From positions 1 through 50,325 of the IMG/VR virus record IMGVR_UViG_3300025508_000028: 50,325 bases of DNA. One strand, 5' to 3'. Below the pieces are notes generated by a model that saw only the letters and a list, made by a program, of their open reading frames with translations, ran no database searches and was not told where the DNA came from. Source of the DNA: a virus. Below are positions 12,462-19,866 of this stretch, piece after piece (the stretch's first letter is position 1; every line of letters begins with the position of its first letter). The translations under genes were made by a program, and so were the position numbers.

Positions 12462-12490
12462 TTGACAACTTATAAATCTACCTGTATAAT
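12462..12490 (+). promoter_or_regulatory. Consensus sigma-70 promoter of the holin/curli block
   Basis: TTGACA (12462-12467), 17-nt spacer, TATAAT (12485-12490): 12/12 match to the sigma-70 consensus. The expected start of transcription (about 12497) is only ~2 nt before the ATG at 12499, so the first message would be leaderless or nearly so. The sequence around the -10 is closely similar to the TerS promoter at 36229-36257. Confidence 0.85.
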
Positions 12491-12498
12491 ACAATAAC

Positions 12499-12651
12499 AT
12501 GATACTGTATCTAGAAGACCAATTAGAAGGATGTTACCGAGAGTATCGTTTACACCAAATAAAACAAGACATGCCCTTTATGTCTCTAGATGATTTTAGA
12601 GATATGTTTGAAGCAATGATGGCAGTTATATATAAGGACGAAGACGAATGA
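12499..12651 (+). CDS. 50-aa acidic protein
   Basis: ATG 12499 lies 8 nt after the -10 box. The product (MILYLEDQLEGCYREYRLHQ onward, ending KDEDE) is a small charged helical protein with Asp/Glu and Met richness in its second half. No ribosome-binding site is possible in the expected message, so initiation would be leaderless. Its stop overlaps the holin start (ATGA), which couples the two. I do not recognise the family. Confidence 0.65.
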   Translation: MILYLEDQLEGCYREYRLHQIKQDMPFMSLDDFRDMFEAMMAVIYKDEDE

Positions 12652-13118
12652 AAGATATGTTAAAAAGTTTAGTAGGAGCAGTAGCCCCTACAATAGGTAC
12701 TGCACTAGGCGGTCCTATGGGAGGCATGGCAGCTAATATGATAGCTGATGTACTCGGAGTACCTAACAATCCTAAAGCGATTGAAAAAGCTATACAAGAA
12801 GCTACACCTGAACAAATGCTTGAACTTAAAAAAGTTGAACAAGAGTTTGAAGTTAAGATGAAAGAACTTGATGTAGATGTGTTTAAACTTGAGACAGCAG
12901 ATATACAAGATGCTAGAGGAAAGTTTAGTAAAGACTGGACAGCACGTATCATGGGCATGGCTACAGTAGGTGGGTTCTTAGGTTATATATTTCTTATAAC
13001 TCTTCAGCCCCCAGAAGCCAACTCAGAGGCATTGGTCAATTTAATTTTAGGATACCTAGGTGGTTTAGCATCAGCTATTGTTAGCTTCTATTTTGGAGCA
13101 TCACATAAACAAGATTAA
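12648..13118 (+). CDS. Holin, 3-TM family
   Basis: 156 aa. A hydrophobic Gly/Ala-rich N-terminus (TIGTALGGPMGGMAANMI), a charged middle with ELKKVEQEFEVKMKELDVDV and DIQDARGKF, and two C-terminal membrane segments (about residues 107-122 and 130-150). This arrangement is that of the holin family with three TMs known from gene-transfer agents and marine phages. It would permeabilise the inner membrane at lysis. The start overlaps the preceding gene by four bases; an AAGGA ribosome site lies about 10 nt upstream. Confidence 0.82.
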   Translation: MKDMLKSLVGAVAPTIGTALGGPMGGMAANMIADVLGVPNNPKAIEKAIQEATPEQMLELKKVEQEFEVKMKELDVDVFKLETADIQDARGKFSKDWTARIMGMATVGGFLGYIFLITLQPPEANSEALVNLILGYLGGLASAIVSFYFGASHKQD

Positions 13119-13303
13119 TGAAACAGAAAATAAAAGACGTTATAGCAGACGGACGATGGAATTGGTTCGGGCTAATAAACGAAGAAGAAGACTCTCAAGA
13201 TAATTGTTATAAAGGATTGTTTTGGGATTTAGAAACCAGAGAGTTCCTTAGATGGAACGAATTTAAACAGGAGTGTAAATCAACTGAAAGCAGTGACCGA
13301 TAG
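13118..13303 (+). CDS. Small charged protein after holin
   Basis: 61 aa, TAATG overlap with the holin stop. It is rich in Trp (5), Glu and Asp with two Cys (30 and 53 approximately) and no membrane segment. No family recognised. The tight overlap argues that it is translated with the holin; a lysis accessory role is only a guess. Confidence 0.6.
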   Translation: MKQKIKDVIADGRWNWFGLINEEEDSQDNCYKGLFWDLETREFLRWNEFKQECKSTESSDR

Positions 13304-13338
13304 TGTCTGCGTTGTATGTATTGTTGGTTGGATATATT

Positions 13339-13368
13339 TAGTAGTTTCGGGATACTACTACTTTTTTT
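13339..13368 (+). terminator. Possible rho-independent terminator
   Basis: TAGTAGT (13339-13345) and ACTACTA (13354-13360) form a 7-bp stem with an 8-nt loop, followed by C and seven T. The stem is weak (2 G-C pairs). It would separate the holin message from the membrane/curli genes, probably with read-through because no strong promoter is seen between here and 13443. Confidence 0.45.
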
Positions 13369-13442
13369 AACCACTACTAAAACTTAAGAAGGATTTTAAA
13401 GAACGCTATTGTTAGCTTCACAGGGAAGTTGCACCTCAAAAT

Positions 13443-13793
13443 ATGGAACAAGCAATTCAATTTATTAATGAAGTTGGTTTTCCAATAGCTGCTGCATTAG
13501 GTTTAGGTTTCTTTATTTGGAAACTTATCAATAGAATCATTGATGGTATGGAGACTAAGTTAGATGTACTAGATGACAAAGTAGCTGACCAAATAGAACA
13601 AATGGAAATAAGACTAGGTACTAAACTAGATGCACAACATGGTATTTTAGTAGCTCTTATAGATAGAGTACGTAGTTTAGACAACGAGATTATAAGACAA
13701 GATACACTTATTAAAACTATACTAGGAGTTCCTCAACTAATAGACAGTAACAAGATTGCTAAAGCAGATAGAGATGACCAAAGGAAAGATTAA
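13443..13793 (+). CDS. Membrane-anchored coiled-coil protein
   Basis: 116 aa. An N-terminal hydrophobic helix (about residues 10-30, VGFPIAAALGLGFFIWKLI) is followed by a long coiled coil (about 36-88) and a hydrophilic tail. The layout is that of a type II inner-membrane protein reaching into one compartment. It lies between the holin and csgF and its end overlaps the csgF start by 20 bases. It could be a lysis accessory protein or belong to the curli block; no family is certain. Confidence 0.72.
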   Translation: MEQAIQFINEVGFPIAAALGLGFFIWKLINRIIDGMETKLDVLDDKVADQIEQMEIRLGTKLDAQHGILVALIDRVRSLDNEIIRQDTLIKTILGVPQLIDSNKIAKADRDDQRKD

Positions 13794-14289
13794 GGTTGAA
13801 GACACACACCCCCTAACACACGTAGCAATTATGTTTGTTATGCAGATAATTGCTTTAAGTTTTGTAGTACTCTCCATGTTTTTTATTGGTGTTTTATCTG
13901 CAGACCAAATGGTACATAAGTTTAAGAACCCTAGTTTTTCAGGTAACAATACAAGCTCTCATTACCTCACAATAGAAAATCAAGAGTTTAATAGAAAAGA
14001 AGCAGTCAAGGCAGAAATAGAAGCTTATAAAGATGAGCTTGCAAGAGAAGCAAAGAACACAACCCTTGCTAGATTTATTAGAAACTTAGAGTCACGTATC
14101 TATGCACAGCTTTCAAGACAGTTAGTAGAAAATTTATTTGGAGAGAATCCTTCTGACTCAGGACAGGTAGAACTAGAAGGTAATACGATTGAATACGAAT
14201 CAGACGGGGAATATATAACTTTAAAAATAACAGATGCAGAAGGGAATGAAACAATTATTACTTTGCCTATCGGCTCTTTTACTTTCTAG
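13774..14289 (+). CDS. csgF: CsgF-like curli assembly factor
   Basis: 171 aa from ATG 13774 (a TTG at 13756 is a poorer alternative). A hydrophobic export segment (residues 18-41) ends in LSA-DQ, a signal peptidase-like site at residue 43. The mature start contains MVHKFKNPSFSGNN, matching the FRNPNFGGN signature of CsgF, which in curli systems inserts into and narrows the CsgG pore. The C-terminus (GNTIEYESDGEYITLKITDA onward) matches the CsgF tail of paired beta strands. A longer middle helix than in E. coli CsgF is present. It overlaps the preceding gene by 20 bases and csgG by 44, and is directly followed by csgG and a curlin-repeat gene, which supports the call. Confidence 0.82.
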   Translation: MTKGKIKVEDTHPLTHVAIMFVMQIIALSFVVLSMFFIGVLSADQMVHKFKNPSFSGNNTSSHYLTIENQEFNRKEAVKAEIEAYKDELAREAKNTTLARFIRNLESRIYAQLSRQLVENLFGENPSDSGQVELEGNTIEYESDGEYITLKITDAEGNETIITLPIGSFTF

Positions 14290-15097
14290 TTGTGCACTAA
14301 ATTATGATTCATTATTAACTACGGGTGGTATTCCAAATATAGTTATTAAAGAATCCTCTGTATTAGATTTACAGTCAAAAGAATTAAAAGATTTACCGGC
14401 AGCTTTAAATAAACCAACCATTGCTGTATACCCTAATAGTTTTAAAGACTTGACAGGGCAACGTAAAAGTAATAGTGAGTTTGCTTTATTTAGTACAGCT
14501 ATCACACAAGCTCCTGAAGCTTTTTTAATCAGGGCTTTTAAACATGCTGCTAATGGTGAGTTCTTTAAAGTTGTAGAACGAGTAGGGTTAGATGACCTTA
14601 CTAAAGAAAGACAACTTATAAGAACCACAAGAAAAGAATTCAAAGAGGATAATAAATTAAAACCATTACTCTTTGCAGGTTTGTTAGTACAAGGCGGAGT
14701 AATTAGTTACGATACAAATCTAAGTAGTGGTGGATTAGGTGCAAGATATTTAGGCATAGGTACGAGTAAACAGTACCGAGAAGATACAGTCAGTATCTCC
14801 CTACGATTGGTTTCTGTAAGCACAGGTGAAGTACTGATAGAAGTATTAGTTTCTAAAAGTATTTTATCTGTAGGTTTGTCACAAGATATATTTCGGTTCA
14901 TAGAACTTGGAACTGAACTTGTCGAAGTTGAAGGAGGGTTTACAGAAAACGAATCTGTATCTATAGCTTTGCAAAGAGCAGTAGAGACAGGTGTTTTAAA
15001 TATAATAACGACAGGTATAGATAGAGGATATTGGGCATATGAAGAAAATAACATTAAGCCTATTGATTGTGGTGAGTGCGTGGGCATTCGGGGCTGA
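14246..15097 (+). CDS. csgG: CsgG outer-membrane curli secretion lipoprotein
   Basis: 283 aa from ATG 14246; an ATG at 14234 is an alternative. The lipoprotein signal ends in the lipobox LLSSC (Cys16). Family signatures in order: IAVYPNSFKDLTGQ, FFKVVERVGLDDL, TKERQLIR, GGVISYDTN, GGLGARYLGIGTSKQYRED, LRLVSVSTGEVL, and GGFTENESVSIALQRAVE. CsgG makes a nonameric 36-strand beta-barrel in the outer membrane that exports curlin subunits. Length is near that of E. coli CsgG (277 aa), and no domain is missing. The gene overlaps csgF and the curlin-like gene on either side, so the three are translated as a unit. Confidence 0.95.
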   Translation: MKQLLLCLSALLLSSCALNYDSLLTTGGIPNIVIKESSVLDLQSKELKDLPAALNKPTIAVYPNSFKDLTGQRKSNSEFALFSTAITQAPEAFLIRAFKHAANGEFFKVVERVGLDDLTKERQLIRTTRKEFKEDNKLKPLLFAGLLVQGGVISYDTNLSSGGLGARYLGIGTSKQYREDTVSISLRLVSVSTGEVLIEVLVSKSILSVGLSQDIFRFIELGTELVEVEGGFTENESVSIALQRAVETGVLNIITTGIDRGYWAYEENNIKPIDCGECVGIRG

Positions 15098-15749
15098 TAA
15101 CGAAATATACGTTGACCAGTCAGGTGCTACAGCTAATATAGATTTAGAGCAGTTAGGTTCAGGTAACATTATTGGTGGTACTGATGCAGTTGCAGGGACA
15201 ATGACTCCTTTAGATTTAGATGGTACAGGAATGACACTAGACATAAATCAAATAGGTGACTCAAATAAATTTCTTGGAGATATTCTGGCTGATAGTTTGA
15301 CAGGCTTCTTTGAGTTTGATGGAGATAGTAACACGTTTAATATACAGGTTGACCCATCAAATACATATGGGGCTGATAGTTCAAACTTAAATGTAGATGT
15401 AACAGGTACAAGTAACAATTTTACTTTAGACTTAGCAACTGTAGCCATGGCAAGTACAACTGATTTAGATTGGATAATACAAGGAGATAGTAATACACTA
15501 AACTTTGATATTGATTATGATTCAGGTACAAGCTATGTAGATATAGATGGTGATTCAAACAATGTAACTTTTGATGGTGATGGTTACGCAGGTGGTTACT
15601 TTTACTTAGACCAAACAGGTAGCTCAAGAACATTTAATATTGACCAACAGAGTACATTAGATAATGATTGGCTTAGAATCAATTCGACAGGTAGTAACGG
15701 GACAGTCTGTGTGGTTCAGTCTGATGGTGGCTTGTCCACTTCTTGCTGA
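15039..15749 (+). CDS. Curlin-repeat (CsgA/CsgB-like) secreted protein
   Basis: 236 aa. The signal peptide MKKITLSLLIVVSAWAFGA is predicted to be cut before Asp20. The mature part has about eight degenerate strand-turn-strand repeats with Gly-x-Ser-Asn turns (DQSGATANIDL, NQIGDSNKF, DGDSNTFNI, TGTSNNFTL, QGDSNTLNF, DGDSNNVTF, DQTGSSRTF), the pattern of curlin amyloid subunits, here Asp-rich. Two Cys near the C-terminus (228 and 236) could form a disulfide. It overlaps csgG by 59 bases. The expected route is Sec export, then CsgG/CsgF. Whether it makes fibres cannot be told from sequence. Confidence 0.8.
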   Translation: MKKITLSLLIVVSAWAFGADNEIYVDQSGATANIDLEQLGSGNIIGGTDAVAGTMTPLDLDGTGMTLDINQIGDSNKFLGDILADSLTGFFEFDGDSNTFNIQVDPSNTYGADSSNLNVDVTGTSNNFTLDLATVAMASTTDLDWIIQGDSNTLNFDIDYDSGTSYVDIDGDSNNVTFDGDGYAGGYFYLDQTGSSRTFNIDQQSTLDNDWLRINSTGSNGTVCVVQSDGGLSTSC

Positions 15750-16773
15750 TATTGGAAGCATAACAGAACTAGAAGGTTCGGGTAGAGTTGTAAGAGACGA
15801 TGCTTACAATGCTACCCTAGCTTTTAATATAGATAGTTACGATAATGTACAAACGTCTAATGGAAGATTAGGCATTACATTTCTAGATGACAGTCAAGTT
15901 CGTTTGACTGAGCATTCAGAATTAATTATAGATGAATTTATCTATGACCCTGACCCATCTAAATCTAAGATGGCTTTACAGTTTGCTAGTGGAACAGCAC
16001 GTTTTATTACTGGTAAACTGTCTACAATTAAAAAAGAAAACATTTTAATTCAAACTCCTTCTGCAACAGTAGGAATAAGAGGTACTGATTTTACAGTAAC
16101 TGTAGATGAATTAGGAAGGTCTTTAATTATTTTATTACCCAAAGAAGACGGACTACCATCTGGAGAGATAGTGGTCAGTACTGCTATGGGGCAAGTAATT
16201 CTAAACAAACCCTATCAAGCTACAACAGTTTCGATGTTTGAAACTTCGCCTAGTAATCCTGTAATCCTTGATTTAACTCTAGAGCTTATAGACAACATGT
16301 TAATAGTAAGTGCTCCACGAGAAGTACAAGGTTTAGAGTCTAGTTCTGCAGAAGTAAAAACCGACAATCTATTAGATATAGACTACTTAGAGTTTGAAGA
16401 GTTAGAAAAAGATTACTTAGAAGAGGATGAACTAGAGTTTACCGAGTTAGATATAAACTATTTAGATGTAAATTTTTTGGAAGACCTTTTAAATGTTATT
16501 GAAGAAGTAAATGAACTAGATACAACCAAGACACTTTTAAAAGCTGACATAGATTTAAAAGGAACGACCTTTGGTTTTGATGCAGAAACTCAAATCAATA
16601 CCTTTATGACAGATTCAGTTATTACTTTTTATAAATCTTTAGAAGATACAGTAAGATTAGACTTAGACAAAAGCAACTCCTATACCTTTATCTTAGTACA
16701 GAATGGCAAGAGTACACAGATAGTTGTAAACGGAGGAGGCTCGTCACAAATTACTATAACACAAGGAAACTAA
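15664..16773 (+). CDS. FecR-domain exported protein
   Basis: 369 aa from ATG 15664, an 86-base overlap with the curlin gene; GTG 15709 (after a GGGA-type site) or ATG 15724 may be the true start. A hydrophobic segment ends in PLLA-DIG, a likely signal peptidase site. The FecR domain follows: GSITELEGSGRVVRDD, NVQTSNGRLGITFLDDSQVR, GTARFITGKLS and TPSATVGIRGTDFTV. FecR domains are periplasmic ligand-sensing or scaffold modules. The second half has acidic Leu-rich repeats (DYLEFEELEKDYLEE) and a beta-rich tail. It ends two bases before the CHASE2 cyclase. FecR-like and CHASE2 cyclase genes often occur side by side in bacteria, which suggests joint function. Confidence 0.85.
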   Translation: MIGLESIRQVVTGQSVWFSLMVACPLLADIGSITELEGSGRVVRDDAYNATLAFNIDSYDNVQTSNGRLGITFLDDSQVRLTEHSELIIDEFIYDPDPSKSKMALQFASGTARFITGKLSTIKKENILIQTPSATVGIRGTDFTVTVDELGRSLIILLPKEDGLPSGEIVVSTAMGQVILNKPYQATTVSMFETSPSNPVILDLTLELIDNMLIVSAPREVQGLESSSAEVKTDNLLDIDYLEFEELEKDYLEEDELEFTELDINYLDVNFLEDLLNVIEEVNELDTTKTLLKADIDLKGTTFGFDAETQINTFMTDSVITFYKSLEDTVRLDLDKSNSYTFILVQNGKSTQIVVNGGGSSQITITQGN

Positions 16774-16774
16774 T

Positions 16775-18532
16775 ATGAAATGGTCTTTACCTTTAATTGG
16801 CTTGTTGACTCTTCCCTTATTGTTTAATGCAGTTCCTTTACAAATACTTAAACTAAAAACCTTTGATGCTTTTATAGAGACTCCTGACCCAACAGGTTAC
16901 TTTAGTATTTTAAATATTACGGAAGAAGATTTAGATGCAGAAGGAGGTTATCCTTTACCAAGAGAAAGTTTAGCAAACATACATACAAAGTTACTGGAGA
17001 AAGGAGCTATAGGTGTAGGGTGGGTTATGTTGTTCCCACATCCTGATAGATTAGGAGGGGATGATGCGTTTGCCAAGGCTTTACAAAGTTCTCCCTCTGT
17101 CATAGGAATGCCTGAAGTTAATAATGCGTTTTACCCCGCTACCCATGGTACAGTAATAAAGGGCATTGAGGTTTCTTTGCCTAAAGCATCAGGATTTTTA
17201 GAGAACATTGAAGTCTTAAAAGACTCTGCAAGTCAAGGAGCTATATCAGCAAACGTAGATGTAGATAATTTAGTAAGACAACTACCTCTTTTACAACAGA
17301 CTCCGAATGGTTGGGTCGCTTCTTTTGGCACAGAGGTTCTAAAGATTTTAGGTGGAGGTAATACTTATCAAATAGTAACCAATGAAAATGGCATAGAGAT
17401 GATAAGAGTTAGAGGACTACCTCCTATACCGACTGATAGTCTTGGTCGTAAATGGATTAGTTGGGTTGATACACCTCAAACAACTTTAAAAGAAATGAAT
17501 GTAGAAGGTAAGTTTGTTTTTGTGGGCTTTACTGCAAAGGGTATCATGCCTCAACTAGCCACTCCAACAGGCTTATTAGAACCTCATAAGATACAAACAG
17601 CACTAGCAGAATCTATCTTGCTACCAACACCTCAGATACCTGATTACTATCTAGTCATAGAACTGTTACTATTATGCCTCTCAGGGCTCTGTATTGCGTT
17701 TCTAATAAACTTTCTAGGTATGACTAGTGGGGTAGTCGCAGTCTTTTTTGCAATGTCTTCTGTAGGCTACTTGGGACTGCATCTTATTGGATTAAATTAT
17801 TTGATAGATGTTACGTGGTCTTTAGTAGGGATGCTCTTTGTTGCAACCCAACAATTCTATTTAAACTTTAGAAAACAATTTAAACTAAGGCAACAAATAA
17901 AGAAACAGTTTGAACACTACCTTGACCCTGCTCAAATAAAAAGATTGCAGGACAATCCGAAACTTTTAAAACTAGGTGGAGAAAAAAGGTACTGTACATT
18001 TTTGTTTACAGATGTTAGAGGTTTCACGGCTATGTCAGAGAACTTAGAGCCTGAAGAAGTTGCTTTAGTAATGAATAAAGCTTTAACTGTACAACAGAAA
18101 TCAGTTCAGAAATATGGTGGAATGGTAGATAAATATATAGGGGACGCAATGATGGCTATATTTAATGCACCATTAGACTTAGATAATCATGAGCAACGAG
18201 CAGTAGACTGTGCATTAGACATGCAGGAAGGAATGTTATTTTTAAATGATGAGTTAGAAAAAGAAGGATTACCCTCGATAACTATTGGGATTGGTATTAA
18301 TAGTGGAGAAGCTGTGGTTGGTAACATGGGAAGTGATACCCGTTTTGATTACACAGCAATAGGTGATGCAGTTAATACTGCAGCTAGAACTGAATCAGCT
18401 TGTAAAGAAGCAGGACATAACCTTTTAATAACTAAACAAACAATTCAAAAATGTTCCAATTCGTTTGAAGTTCTTACACCCATTCCTGTAAAAGGTAAAT
18501 CCATTCCTCTTAGAATAAATACTATACTTTAA
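16775..18532 (+). CDS. CHASE2-domain class III adenylate cyclase
   Basis: 585 aa. One N-terminal membrane segment, a periplasmic CHASE2 sensor (about 25-285), three membrane segments (about 290-365), a short linker and a class III cyclase domain (about 400-580). Catalytic residues look complete: metal Asp413 in LFTDVRGF, substrate Lys453 in VDKYIGDA, metal Asp457, Thr527 in FDYTAIGDAVN, Asn534 and Arg538. The Lys/Thr pair is that of class IIIb adenylate cyclases, so cAMP is the likely product. It begins two bases after fecR. The block thus ends with a membrane signalling enzyme that could raise host cAMP during infection. Transcription converges here with the leftward RNR operon. Confidence 0.92.
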   Translation: MKWSLPLIGLLTLPLLFNAVPLQILKLKTFDAFIETPDPTGYFSILNITEEDLDAEGGYPLPRESLANIHTKLLEKGAIGVGWVMLFPHPDRLGGDDAFAKALQSSPSVIGMPEVNNAFYPATHGTVIKGIEVSLPKASGFLENIEVLKDSASQGAISANVDVDNLVRQLPLLQQTPNGWVASFGTEVLKILGGGNTYQIVTNENGIEMIRVRGLPPIPTDSLGRKWISWVDTPQTTLKEMNVEGKFVFVGFTAKGIMPQLATPTGLLEPHKIQTALAESILLPTPQIPDYYLVIELLLLCLSGLCIAFLINFLGMTSGVVAVFFAMSSVGYLGLHLIGLNYLIDVTWSLVGMLFVATQQFYLNFRKQFKLRQQIKKQFEHYLDPAQIKRLQDNPKLLKLGGEKRYCTFLFTDVRGFTAMSENLEPEEVALVMNKALTVQQKSVQKYGGMVDKYIGDAMMAIFNAPLDLDNHEQRAVDCALDMQEGMLFLNDELEKEGLPSITIGIGINSGEAVVGNMGSDTRFDYTAIGDAVNTAARTESACKEAGHNLLITKQTIQKCSNSFEVLTPIPVKGKSIPLRINTIL

Positions 18533-18741
18533 AAGGTAGCATCTAACTGAACTTCTATATTTTTATGTAGAGGTTCTAAAGCTAGTTTAGCTTCTTTTAT
18601 TGCTTTTAGTATAACAAGTCTATCATCTTTTTGAAATCTATGTATTTCTTCCTCAGGGAAACTAGATATTTCTGTAACTAATTTGTTATCAGAATCAATA
18701 ACTAACTTCCAACTAATAAGATTAGCTTCCGATGCTTTCAT
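18529..18741 (-). CDS. Small protein downstream of nrdB
   Basis: 70 aa, overlapping the nrdB end by 20 bases and the end of the convergent cyclase gene by four. It is a soluble, charged protein with EEIHRFQKDDRLVILKAIKEAKLAL, likely mostly helical. It is the last gene of the leftward operon. Family not recognised. Confidence 0.65.
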   Translation of the reverse strand: MKASEANLISWKLVIDSDNKLVTEISSFPEEEIHRFQKDDRLVILKAIKEAKLALEPLHKNIEVQLDATF

Positions 18742-19711
18742 TATTTATCTCCGTAAAGTTTACAACGTCCTGTTTACCACGAAGCCCTGCTTTCATGTAG
18801 GATGTTGCTCGACCTTCAAAGAAATTTTGGTGTTCGACACCCATTACTTCATCAATCCAACCCAAAGGATTTTCTCGTTGGTCATAATTTGTTTTTAATC
18901 CTAGCTGTAGTAATCTTCTATCAGCTATATATCTATTGTAGGCATACATATCTTTCTTTGTAAGACCTTGTAAGTCTCCCATTTCAAATACTAAATCAAG
19001 AAATTTATCTTCTAACTCTACCATTTCTCTACAGATTTGATAAAGCTCTCCTTTAAAATCATCTGTCCATATGTCTAAGTTTTCTTTTATAAACTCTCTA
19101 AATAATTTAGTCATAGCTTCAACATGCATAGACTCGTCACGTATAGAGTAGGTAACTATCTGCCCCATGCCTTTCATCTTTCCAAATCTAGGAAAGTTTA
19201 ACAGGATTGCAAAGCTACTAAAGAGTTGTAAGCCTTCTGTAAAAGCTGAGTATACTGCAAGTGTTTTTGCAATAGTTCTTTTATCATTCTTACGTGGTTT
19301 AAATGTAGAAACATAGTCATGCTTTGCTGACATCTCTTCATACTCTGCAAAAGCTTTGTATTCTATTTCAGGCATACCTACTGTATCAAGAAGAATACTG
19401 TAAGCATCTTGATGTATACCTTCCATATTTATAAATGAACCCATCATCATTCTAGCTTCAGGTTTTTTAAACATAGGCATATATTTATCTATGTACCCCG
19501 AAGCTACATCTACATCTGATTGAGTAAATAGTCTAAAGATTTGTGTCAATAAGTTTTTTTCTGCAGGTGATATATCTTGCCAGTCTTTTACATCTGTGTG
19601 TAAAGGAACAGACTCAGTCATCCAATGCATTTGATTTTGTAATTTAAAGTAATCGTACATCCACGGGTACTCAAAAGGTTTGTAATAATTTCTAGTGCTT
19701 AATAGGCTCAT
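18722..19711 (-). CDS. nrdB: Ribonucleotide reductase class I small subunit
   Basis: 329 aa. Metal ligands of the ferritin-like fold are visible: Asp66 (TQSDVD), Glu97 and His100 (NMEGIHQDAY), Glu159 (FTEGLQLF), Glu193 and His196 (RDESMHVEA). Tyr104 sits at the radical position, so this is a tyrosyl-radical type and not one of the Tyr-less marine groups. It generates the radical for NrdA and supplies dNTPs for phage DNA synthesis. The start overlaps the upstream small gene (ATGA). The gene order nrdA, two small genes, nrdB suggests that the small genes travel with RNR. Confidence 0.96.
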   Translation of the reverse strand: MSLLSTRNYYKPFEYPWMYDYFKLQNQMHWMTESVPLHTDVKDWQDISPAEKNLLTQIFRLFTQSDVDVASGYIDKYMPMFKKPEARMMMGSFINMEGIHQDAYSILLDTVGMPEIEYKAFAEYEEMSAKHDYVSTFKPRKNDKRTIAKTLAVYSAFTEGLQLFSSFAILLNFPRFGKMKGMGQIVTYSIRDESMHVEAMTKLFREFIKENLDIWTDDFKGELYQICREMVELEDKFLDLVFEMGDLQGLTKKDMYAYNRYIADRRLLQLGLKTNYDQRENPLGWIDEVMGVEHQNFFEGRATSYMKAGLRGKQDVVNFTEINNESIGS

Positions 19712-19866
19712 ATTTTTTCCTGTTCTTTAGCATACTTTTCAAGTAGCCATTTGTTAAATTCTTTTTTATATTCTTGTTCTGTATATGTTGTAGAGTATGG
19801 TGTTTTATTTTCATCACAATGGTCTAACCACATTCTCCTACAAAATGAACTAAACGTATTAGACAT
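19708..19866 (-). CDS. 52-aa protein between nrdA and nrdB
   Basis: Begins at 19866 with ATG overlapping the preceding stop by one base and ends in an ATGA overlap with nrdB. The product contains FCRRMWLDHCDENKTP and a C-terminal NKWLLEKYAKEQ; similar short proteins with MWLDxCDEN accompany phage RNR genes as far as I recall. Two Cys and one His could bind metal. Function unknown; coupling suggests a role with RNR. Confidence 0.75.
   Translation of the reverse strand: MSNTFSSFCRRMWLDHCDENKTPYSTTYTEQEYKKEFNKWLLEKYAKEQEKI

Follow-up and report, generated by a model that had tools for sequence, protein, structure and literature searches.

Which function may a curli secretion block have in a phage? 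The question is raised by the IMG/VR virus record IMGVR_UViG_3300025508_000028, in which a group of plus-strand genes encodes a CsgF protein, a CsgG pore, a curlin-type protein, an exported FecR-domain protein and a CHASE2-linked nucleotide cyclase. The stretch of DNA analysed, called here the window, is the whole record (50,325 bases; GC content 34.6%). Phage curli blocks have received three competing explanations (a lysis pore, an uptake pore and a surface fibre), and no experiment deciding among them was found in the literature. The results described below indicate that the block is probably a cassette by which the phage converts the surface of the infected cell: a curlin-like protein would be exported through CsgG-CsgF, accompanied by a pair of proteins that would sense the envelope and signal by cyclic AMP (cAMP). 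An initial annotation, made from the letters of the window, had already pointed towards surface remodelling, and this direction is supported by the all-or-none occurrence of the block, by its replacement with a cassette for exported proteins, and by the permanence of the neighbouring holin-like gene.

The limits of the block became apparent in a blastn comparison with L366, a relative devoid of it. Homology covers the flanks 12499-13446 (82%) and 18553-19861 (77%), with nothing between them, leaving an exchanged segment at 13447-18552 (plus strand). Since the homology stops at 13446, this segment begins at the start of a gene for a 116-amino-acid protein (13443-13793). By this comparison the module is a unit of six genes, swapped as a whole between the holin-like gene and the ribonucleotide reductase (RNR) operon. 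The initial annotation had counted five genes; those five were right, but the 13443-13793 gene was omitted although it lies inside the exchanged unit. A 28-nucleotide sequence (13400-13427, plus strand), found exactly in 42 viral contigs, is conserved ahead of both cassettes, and the left exchange junction follows it.

Two samplings of relatives were used to follow the occurrence of the block; some contigs are shared between them, and related contigs do not count as independent events. In the first, viral contigs were chosen by the RNR beta gene, which lies outside the block, and 32 relatives had at least 5 kb beyond it. csgG and fecR were present together in 13 of them and both missing from 19, while no contig carried only one. 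An alternative cassette occupies the same region in 12 of the 19 relatives without the block and in none of the block carriers tested. The second sampling relied on the 28-nucleotide sequence, independently of cassette content, and gave 42 contigs (40 informative): 11 with the curli block, 29 with the alternative cassette, two too short and none with both. The suspicion that the genes might occur only singly in relatives was not borne out, csgG never being found without fecR among the 32. The same is true of the suspicion that the contig is a chimera of bacterial and phage DNA created during assembly. Although the gene families are bacterial in origin, identical junctions recur in many independent contigs, the block is also known from the isolates HTVC008M and Melnitz, and the viral CsgG sequences cluster together, so that a chimera is extremely improbable.

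The alternative cassette (for instance, L366:1496-5110, L361:6717-10336 and, on the minus strand, L349:10198-14284, all in the same slot) is unrelated to the curli block and encodes three proteins. The first (about 350 amino acids) is exported and combines extended Thr-Asn repeats with a C-terminal part that is conserved (phrog_20531); the second, also exported, has 650-750 residues; the third is a small membrane coiled coil of 112-122 residues. The large protein has no family in Pfam, NCBIfam or PHROGs, and neither of its halves matched the annotated phage collection. A tentative proposal, which we regard as possible rather than probable, is that HTVC103P-like pelagiphages possess a two-allele surface-cassette locus, where a curli module with an envelope-to-cAMP sensor alternates with an undescribed Asn/Thr-repeat cassette. 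With unrelated machinery, both would do the same job, the formation of a repetitive and possibly amyloid coat, and competition on the surface of the cell (superinfection exclusion, for example) would drive the swapping between them.

The exchange also bears on the proposal that CsgG and CsgF serve lysis, their pore being gated or acting as a pinholin to set the moment of progeny release (PMC9004378, on phage Melnitz). The authors of that report argued for a narrowed pore; in the window the cassette adjoins a holin-like gene, lysozyme being close to it in relatives, and the CsgE gate was not found. However, the holin-like gene remains beside either cassette, as lysozyme does in many relatives, also when the curli block is swapped for a cassette without CsgG, indicating that the phage does not need a CsgG pore to lyse its host. 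Because the alternative cassette has no recognised pore and the holin-like gene is fixed, lysis through CsgG becomes less likely. Besides, CsgG is located in the outer membrane and holins in the inner one, and a pore alone leaves unexplained the conservation of the curlin-type and FecR proteins as well as the all-or-none occurrence. A lysis role is thus considered unlikely, and the swap of the whole unit beside a fixed holin-like gene argues for the surface role. The mutual exclusion between the all-or-none block and a cassette for exported proteins is among the reasons for favouring conversion of the cell surface.

The gene identities given by the initial annotation (CsgF, CsgG, curlin-type, FecR and CHASE2 class III cyclase) were upheld by Pfam and by homologues, and the five genes lie on the plus strand where it had placed them, overlapping or 1 nucleotide apart. 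Its signatures are present as well: the CsgG lipobox, FKNPSFSG in CsgF and the G-x-S-N turns of the curlin-like protein. The first gene of the exchanged unit (13443-13793, plus strand; phrog_18771, 3.8e-15) encodes a membrane protein of 116 amino acids with one N-terminal membrane segment followed by a coiled coil; in HTVC008M and Melnitz, too, csgF is directly preceded by a phrog_18771 gene. It is probably this gene that has been labelled a histidine kinase (PMC9599517). The label appears unsupported by the sequences, since 116 residues are too few and no HisKA domain was found in the window, in seven related carriers, in HTVC008M or in Melnitz (the HATPase domain was not searched for). CsgF (13774-14289, plus strand; PF10614, 2.9e-20; phrog_35372, 1.1e-42) consists of a hydrophobic N-terminal segment and then FKNPSFSG and the CsgF domain. 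The CsgG outer-membrane pore lipoprotein (14234-15097, plus strand; PF03783, 5.5e-50) has the lipobox LSSC, and its profile matches solved CsgG chains at 1.4e-63, in agreement with the fold that the initial annotation expected.

The presumed substrate is a curlin-type repeat protein with a signal peptide (15039-15749, plus strand). It has no Pfam match above the cut-off, PF07012 being below threshold, while this Curlin_rpt family is detected in 10 of 30 aligned homologues (best 8.6e-6); the protein is 29.6% identical to an HTVC008M homologue annotated as curlin-associated. Its AlphaFold model is predicted to be all-beta, with a predicted local distance difference test (pLDDT) score of 78.6. 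The FecR-domain protein (15664-16773, plus strand; PF04773, 6.2e-11; phrog_37870, 4.7e-81) is exported and lacks the usual cytoplasmic part; its AlphaFold model (pLDDT 36) is unusable. The last gene (16775-18532, plus strand) encodes a CHASE2 membrane sensor (PF05226, 2.5e-27) fused to a class III, IIIb-type, nucleotide cyclase (Guanylate_cyc PF00211, 7.7e-20) that matches cyclase structures at 1.2e-34. Median ratios of nonsynonymous to synonymous substitution (dN/dS) to relatives are 0.13-0.24 across the five genes, the 116-residue gene having 0.12, which shows purifying selection on the six-gene unit.

With respect to the FecR-cyclase pair, the cyclase residues D413, K453, D457, N534 and R538 are each retained by 93-95 of the 95 sequences compared, and 93 have T or S at position 527 (T527 in the window), as in class IIIb enzymes. 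As judged from the alignment, the class IIIb set is complete: the metal-binding Asp pair, the Lys/Thr substrate pair and the transition-state Asn and Arg. With its catalytic residues intact, cAMP signalling by the cyclase is plausible. Among 34 distinct carriers, the distances of FecR and cyclase show the highest correlation of all gene pairs (r 0.89), followed closely by csgG-curlin (r 0.87) and csgF-csgG (r 0.86). Relative to the window, L006 and L007 have 92-98% identity in the CsgF, CsgG and curlin-type proteins and only 65-68% in FecR and the cyclase, and DNA identity falls from about 16000, inside fecR, to the end of the cyclase gene. This pattern indicates that the C-terminal part of FecR and the cyclase recombine as one, as would be expected of interacting partners. 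In L012, identity to the window drops from about 89% to about 62% near 17900, inside the cyclase gene, as if the catalytic domain alone had been swapped. The idea that the FecR C-terminus is a curlin-like repeat, suggested by I-x-I-x-Q endings in both proteins, was discarded (profile comparison probability 0.5%), and PADLOC matches of the cyclase to Pycsar reflect generic class III cyclase similarity.

CHASE2 genes are present in 138 of 289 Alphaproteobacteria genomes. Of 30 alphaproteobacterial CHASE2 genes, 4 have a FecR gene at a distance of at most 1.5 kb, and tables read by hand gave FecR-CHASE2 pairs within some 5 kb in about 30 Alphaproteobacteria genomes. Neither FecR nor a class III cyclase was found in 42 bacterial csgF/csgG regions (flanks up to 8-10 kb) searched with viral profiles that do recognise bacterial members, and FecR and adenylate cyclase (AC) are reported not to be part of bacterial curli operons (PMC9599517). 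Since FecR-CHASE2 pairs are common in Alphaproteobacteria but were not found beside bacterial csgFG, the phage block looks like two bacterial modules joined. Biofilm formation by Burkholderia contaminans depends on a FecR/CHASE2-kinase operon (PMC5192318). This operon, together with the joint divergence and recombination of FecR and cyclase and the intact cyclase residues, favours the surface role.

In another explanation, with which the name FecR and an iron-limited habitat agree, the pore, possibly ungated without CsgE, lets the infected cell take up nutrients or cofactors and FecR is an iron-linked regulator (PMC7029224, PMC9599517). The FecR of the window is, however, exported, and no FecI/FecA-type partner (sigma factor or TonB transporter) was found among the block genes or the scanned neighbours. 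The bacterial FecR-CHASE2 pairing points to general envelope sensing, the conserved curlin-type substrate and CsgF are left unexplained, and no pore is recognised in the alternative cassette. Uptake is therefore regarded as rather improbable. It is very improbable, in turn, that the exported proteins are parts or decorations of the virion. The block does come after the structural operon, but the signal peptides, the lipobox and the membrane cyclase imply a location in the cell envelope, and the block is wholly absent from closely related phages.

Under the reading preferred here, conversion of the cell surface, the block would be transcribed by the host RNA polymerase, either from a promoter at 12462 or by read-through from the late operon. 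CsgG and CsgF would form an outer-membrane pore exporting the curlin-type protein to the surface of the infected cell, where it would build a beta-rich, perhaps amyloid, coat. Periplasmic FecR and the CHASE2 domain would report the state of the envelope or of secretion to the cyclase, resulting in cAMP production. The likely benefit would be an altered, sticky surface that excludes competing phages or keeps the progeny near new hosts.

Several points weigh against this interpretation. No clumping was seen in Melnitz-infected cells (PMC9004378). The block lies where the late operon ends, with lysis-type genes beside it, a position that would also suit a lysis role. In L011, L013, L016 and L019-L023 the cyclase is absent and csgF-csgG-curlin-fecR is kept before RNR beta, so FecR must act there alone or with a host partner. 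A Foldseek search of the curlin-type model against the PDB gave no solved structure at E <= 0.001. CsgE (PF10627) was not matched in the window, the Escherichia coli control being positive; this gate is reported to be helpful, not essential, in E. coli (PMC7029224). Finally, we infer, rather than observe, the export, the amyloid formation, the cAMP production and the benefit for the phage.

The holin-like membrane protein (12648-13118, plus strand; 156 amino acids; phrog_1544, 6.1e-27) flanks the cassette and is followed by a gene for a 61-residue protein (13118-13303, plus strand), which is upstream of both cassette types. Between the latter and the cassette, a hydrophobic micro open reading frame with a GTG start (13293-13370, plus strand; 25 amino acids, VTDSVCVVCIVGWIYLVVSGYYYFF) is conserved, the differences among relatives looking mostly third-position; it is possibly a small lysis protein. 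A terminator, considered because of a hairpin and T-run at about 13337-13368, was dropped, since it overlaps this frame with its third-position-like changes. A perfect sigma-70 consensus promoter (TTGACA-17-TATAAT; 12462-12490, plus strand) precedes the holin-like gene and the cassette. It is kept in 12 of 12 close relatives with either cassette and is missing at that place in more distant ones; this consensus match suggests that the cassette is transcribed by host RNA polymerase independently of the structural operon. The window contains six perfect TTGACA-N16-18-TATAAT sites (12462, 23080, 28415, 36172, 36229 and 39488; 36172/36229 form a divergent pair) against 0.10 expected, and the transcription units of the phage seem to rely on host sigma-70 promoters. 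Rfam gave no match in the window.

The DNA is that of a phage: structural genes lie on one side of the block, and RNR and DNA polymerase on the other. The portal is 61/57/57% identical to those of the Pelagibacter phages HTVC115P/103P/104P, and the polymerase is 50% identical to those of the same group (next best, 42%). An HMO-2011-type assignment, prompted by the portal, was ruled out: phages of that type have a DNA polymerase with a partial DnaJ domain (PMC9038755), and the corresponding motif (CXXCXGXG) was not found in the polymerase of the window. Phages of the HTVC103P-type group have structural genes of the HMO-2011 type together with a replication module of their own (PMC8528129). As the window shows this same combination, its phage fits that group by sequence, nearest to HTVC103P/104P/115P, and its host is likely a SAR11 bacterium. 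Eleven long related records carrying the curli block have the complete portal at 78-83% identity. The block is missing from cultured HTVC115P, in which small genes and an Hsp20 gene occupy the space from RNR beta to the large late gene.

The curli block is also present in L026, L029, L030 and L032 (IMGVR_UViG_3300030106_000856), where the holin-like gene follows the cyclase gene; a homologue of the L032 holin-like gene is annotated as holin in a Manatee Spring phage. Their podovirus-like backbone matched neither the portal nor the polymerase of the window (where searched), nor the HTVC023P polymerase, which ruled out the HTVC023P type; they are perhaps a further carrier lineage. In a CsgG tree the viral sequences fall together, although support is modest (72/69), and those of podoviruses make up a clade (100/100) apart from HTVC008M and Melnitz. 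The deep order of this tree is unsafe owing to long branches, and the alphaproteobacterial origin proposed for CsgG (PMC9599517) is neither confirmed nor excluded by it. CsgG from L026 and L028, carriers outside the assigned lineages, sits among HTVC103P-like carriers, which suggests that the block has moved between phage lineages. A CsgG relative (42%) is also encoded by OR851715.1 (1,499 bp, named Salmonella phage S.Kent 1-2-1), perhaps a host csgG deposited as phage.

The two cassette types offer natural pairs of phages for comparing surface and lysis roles, and the FecR-cyclase sub-unit is a compact system for asking what FecR-CHASE2 pairs sense. The six-gene extent, the exchange of the unit with an alternative cassette and the joint recombination of the FecR C-terminal part with the cyclase are new here. 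The full combination of genes, which the initial annotation took as undescribed, is not: it had been reported before (PMC9599517) and is present in the GenBank entries of HTVC008M and Melnitz. Zaragoza-Solas et al. 2020 (PMC7029224) had found csgFG in pelagimyophages, and for Melnitz Buchholz et al. 2022 (PMC9004378) suggested that lysis uses a pinholin or secretin-like pore. Wittmers 2022 (PMC9599517) found the order HK-CsgF-CsgG-CsgA/B-FecR-(CsgA/B)-AC, HK being the histidine kinase, in nine HTVC023P-type podovirus genomes and in pelagimyophages, and proposed aggregation, superinfection defence or uptake. These reports concern HTVC023P-type podoviruses and myoviruses; no paper reporting the block in the HTVC103P/104P/115P lineage was found.

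The type VIII secretion module of HTVC023P-type phages resembles the block in its CsgF, CsgG, CsgA/B-like, FecR and cyclase genes, in their order and in its presence in a marine podovirus. The window phage differs in its lineage, as judged by polymerase and portal, in its single curlin gene and in its preceding gene, a coiled coil without a kinase domain; the exchange with an alternative cassette is absent from the HTVC023P-type report. HTVC008M and Melnitz (Kyanoviridae) share the order, including the upstream phrog_18771 gene, FecR and cyclase. They are, however, myoviruses of 141-147 kb in which a second curlin-repeat gene separates fecR from the cyclase gene, and their CsgG is about 45-47% identical to that of the window. 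The curli (type VIII) secretion system of E. coli has in common the CsgG pore, CsgF and a curlin-repeat substrate, whereas the phage block is devoid of CsgE, CsgD and CsgC counterparts and adds FecR and the cyclase. The BiofilmReg operon of B. contaminans (PMC5192318) differs in its output through a kinase and a response regulator, in the LysM domain of its FecR/LysM protein and in its lack of csg genes, but it shares with the phage block an exported FecR protein beside a CHASE2 membrane sensor, together with the link to biofilm.

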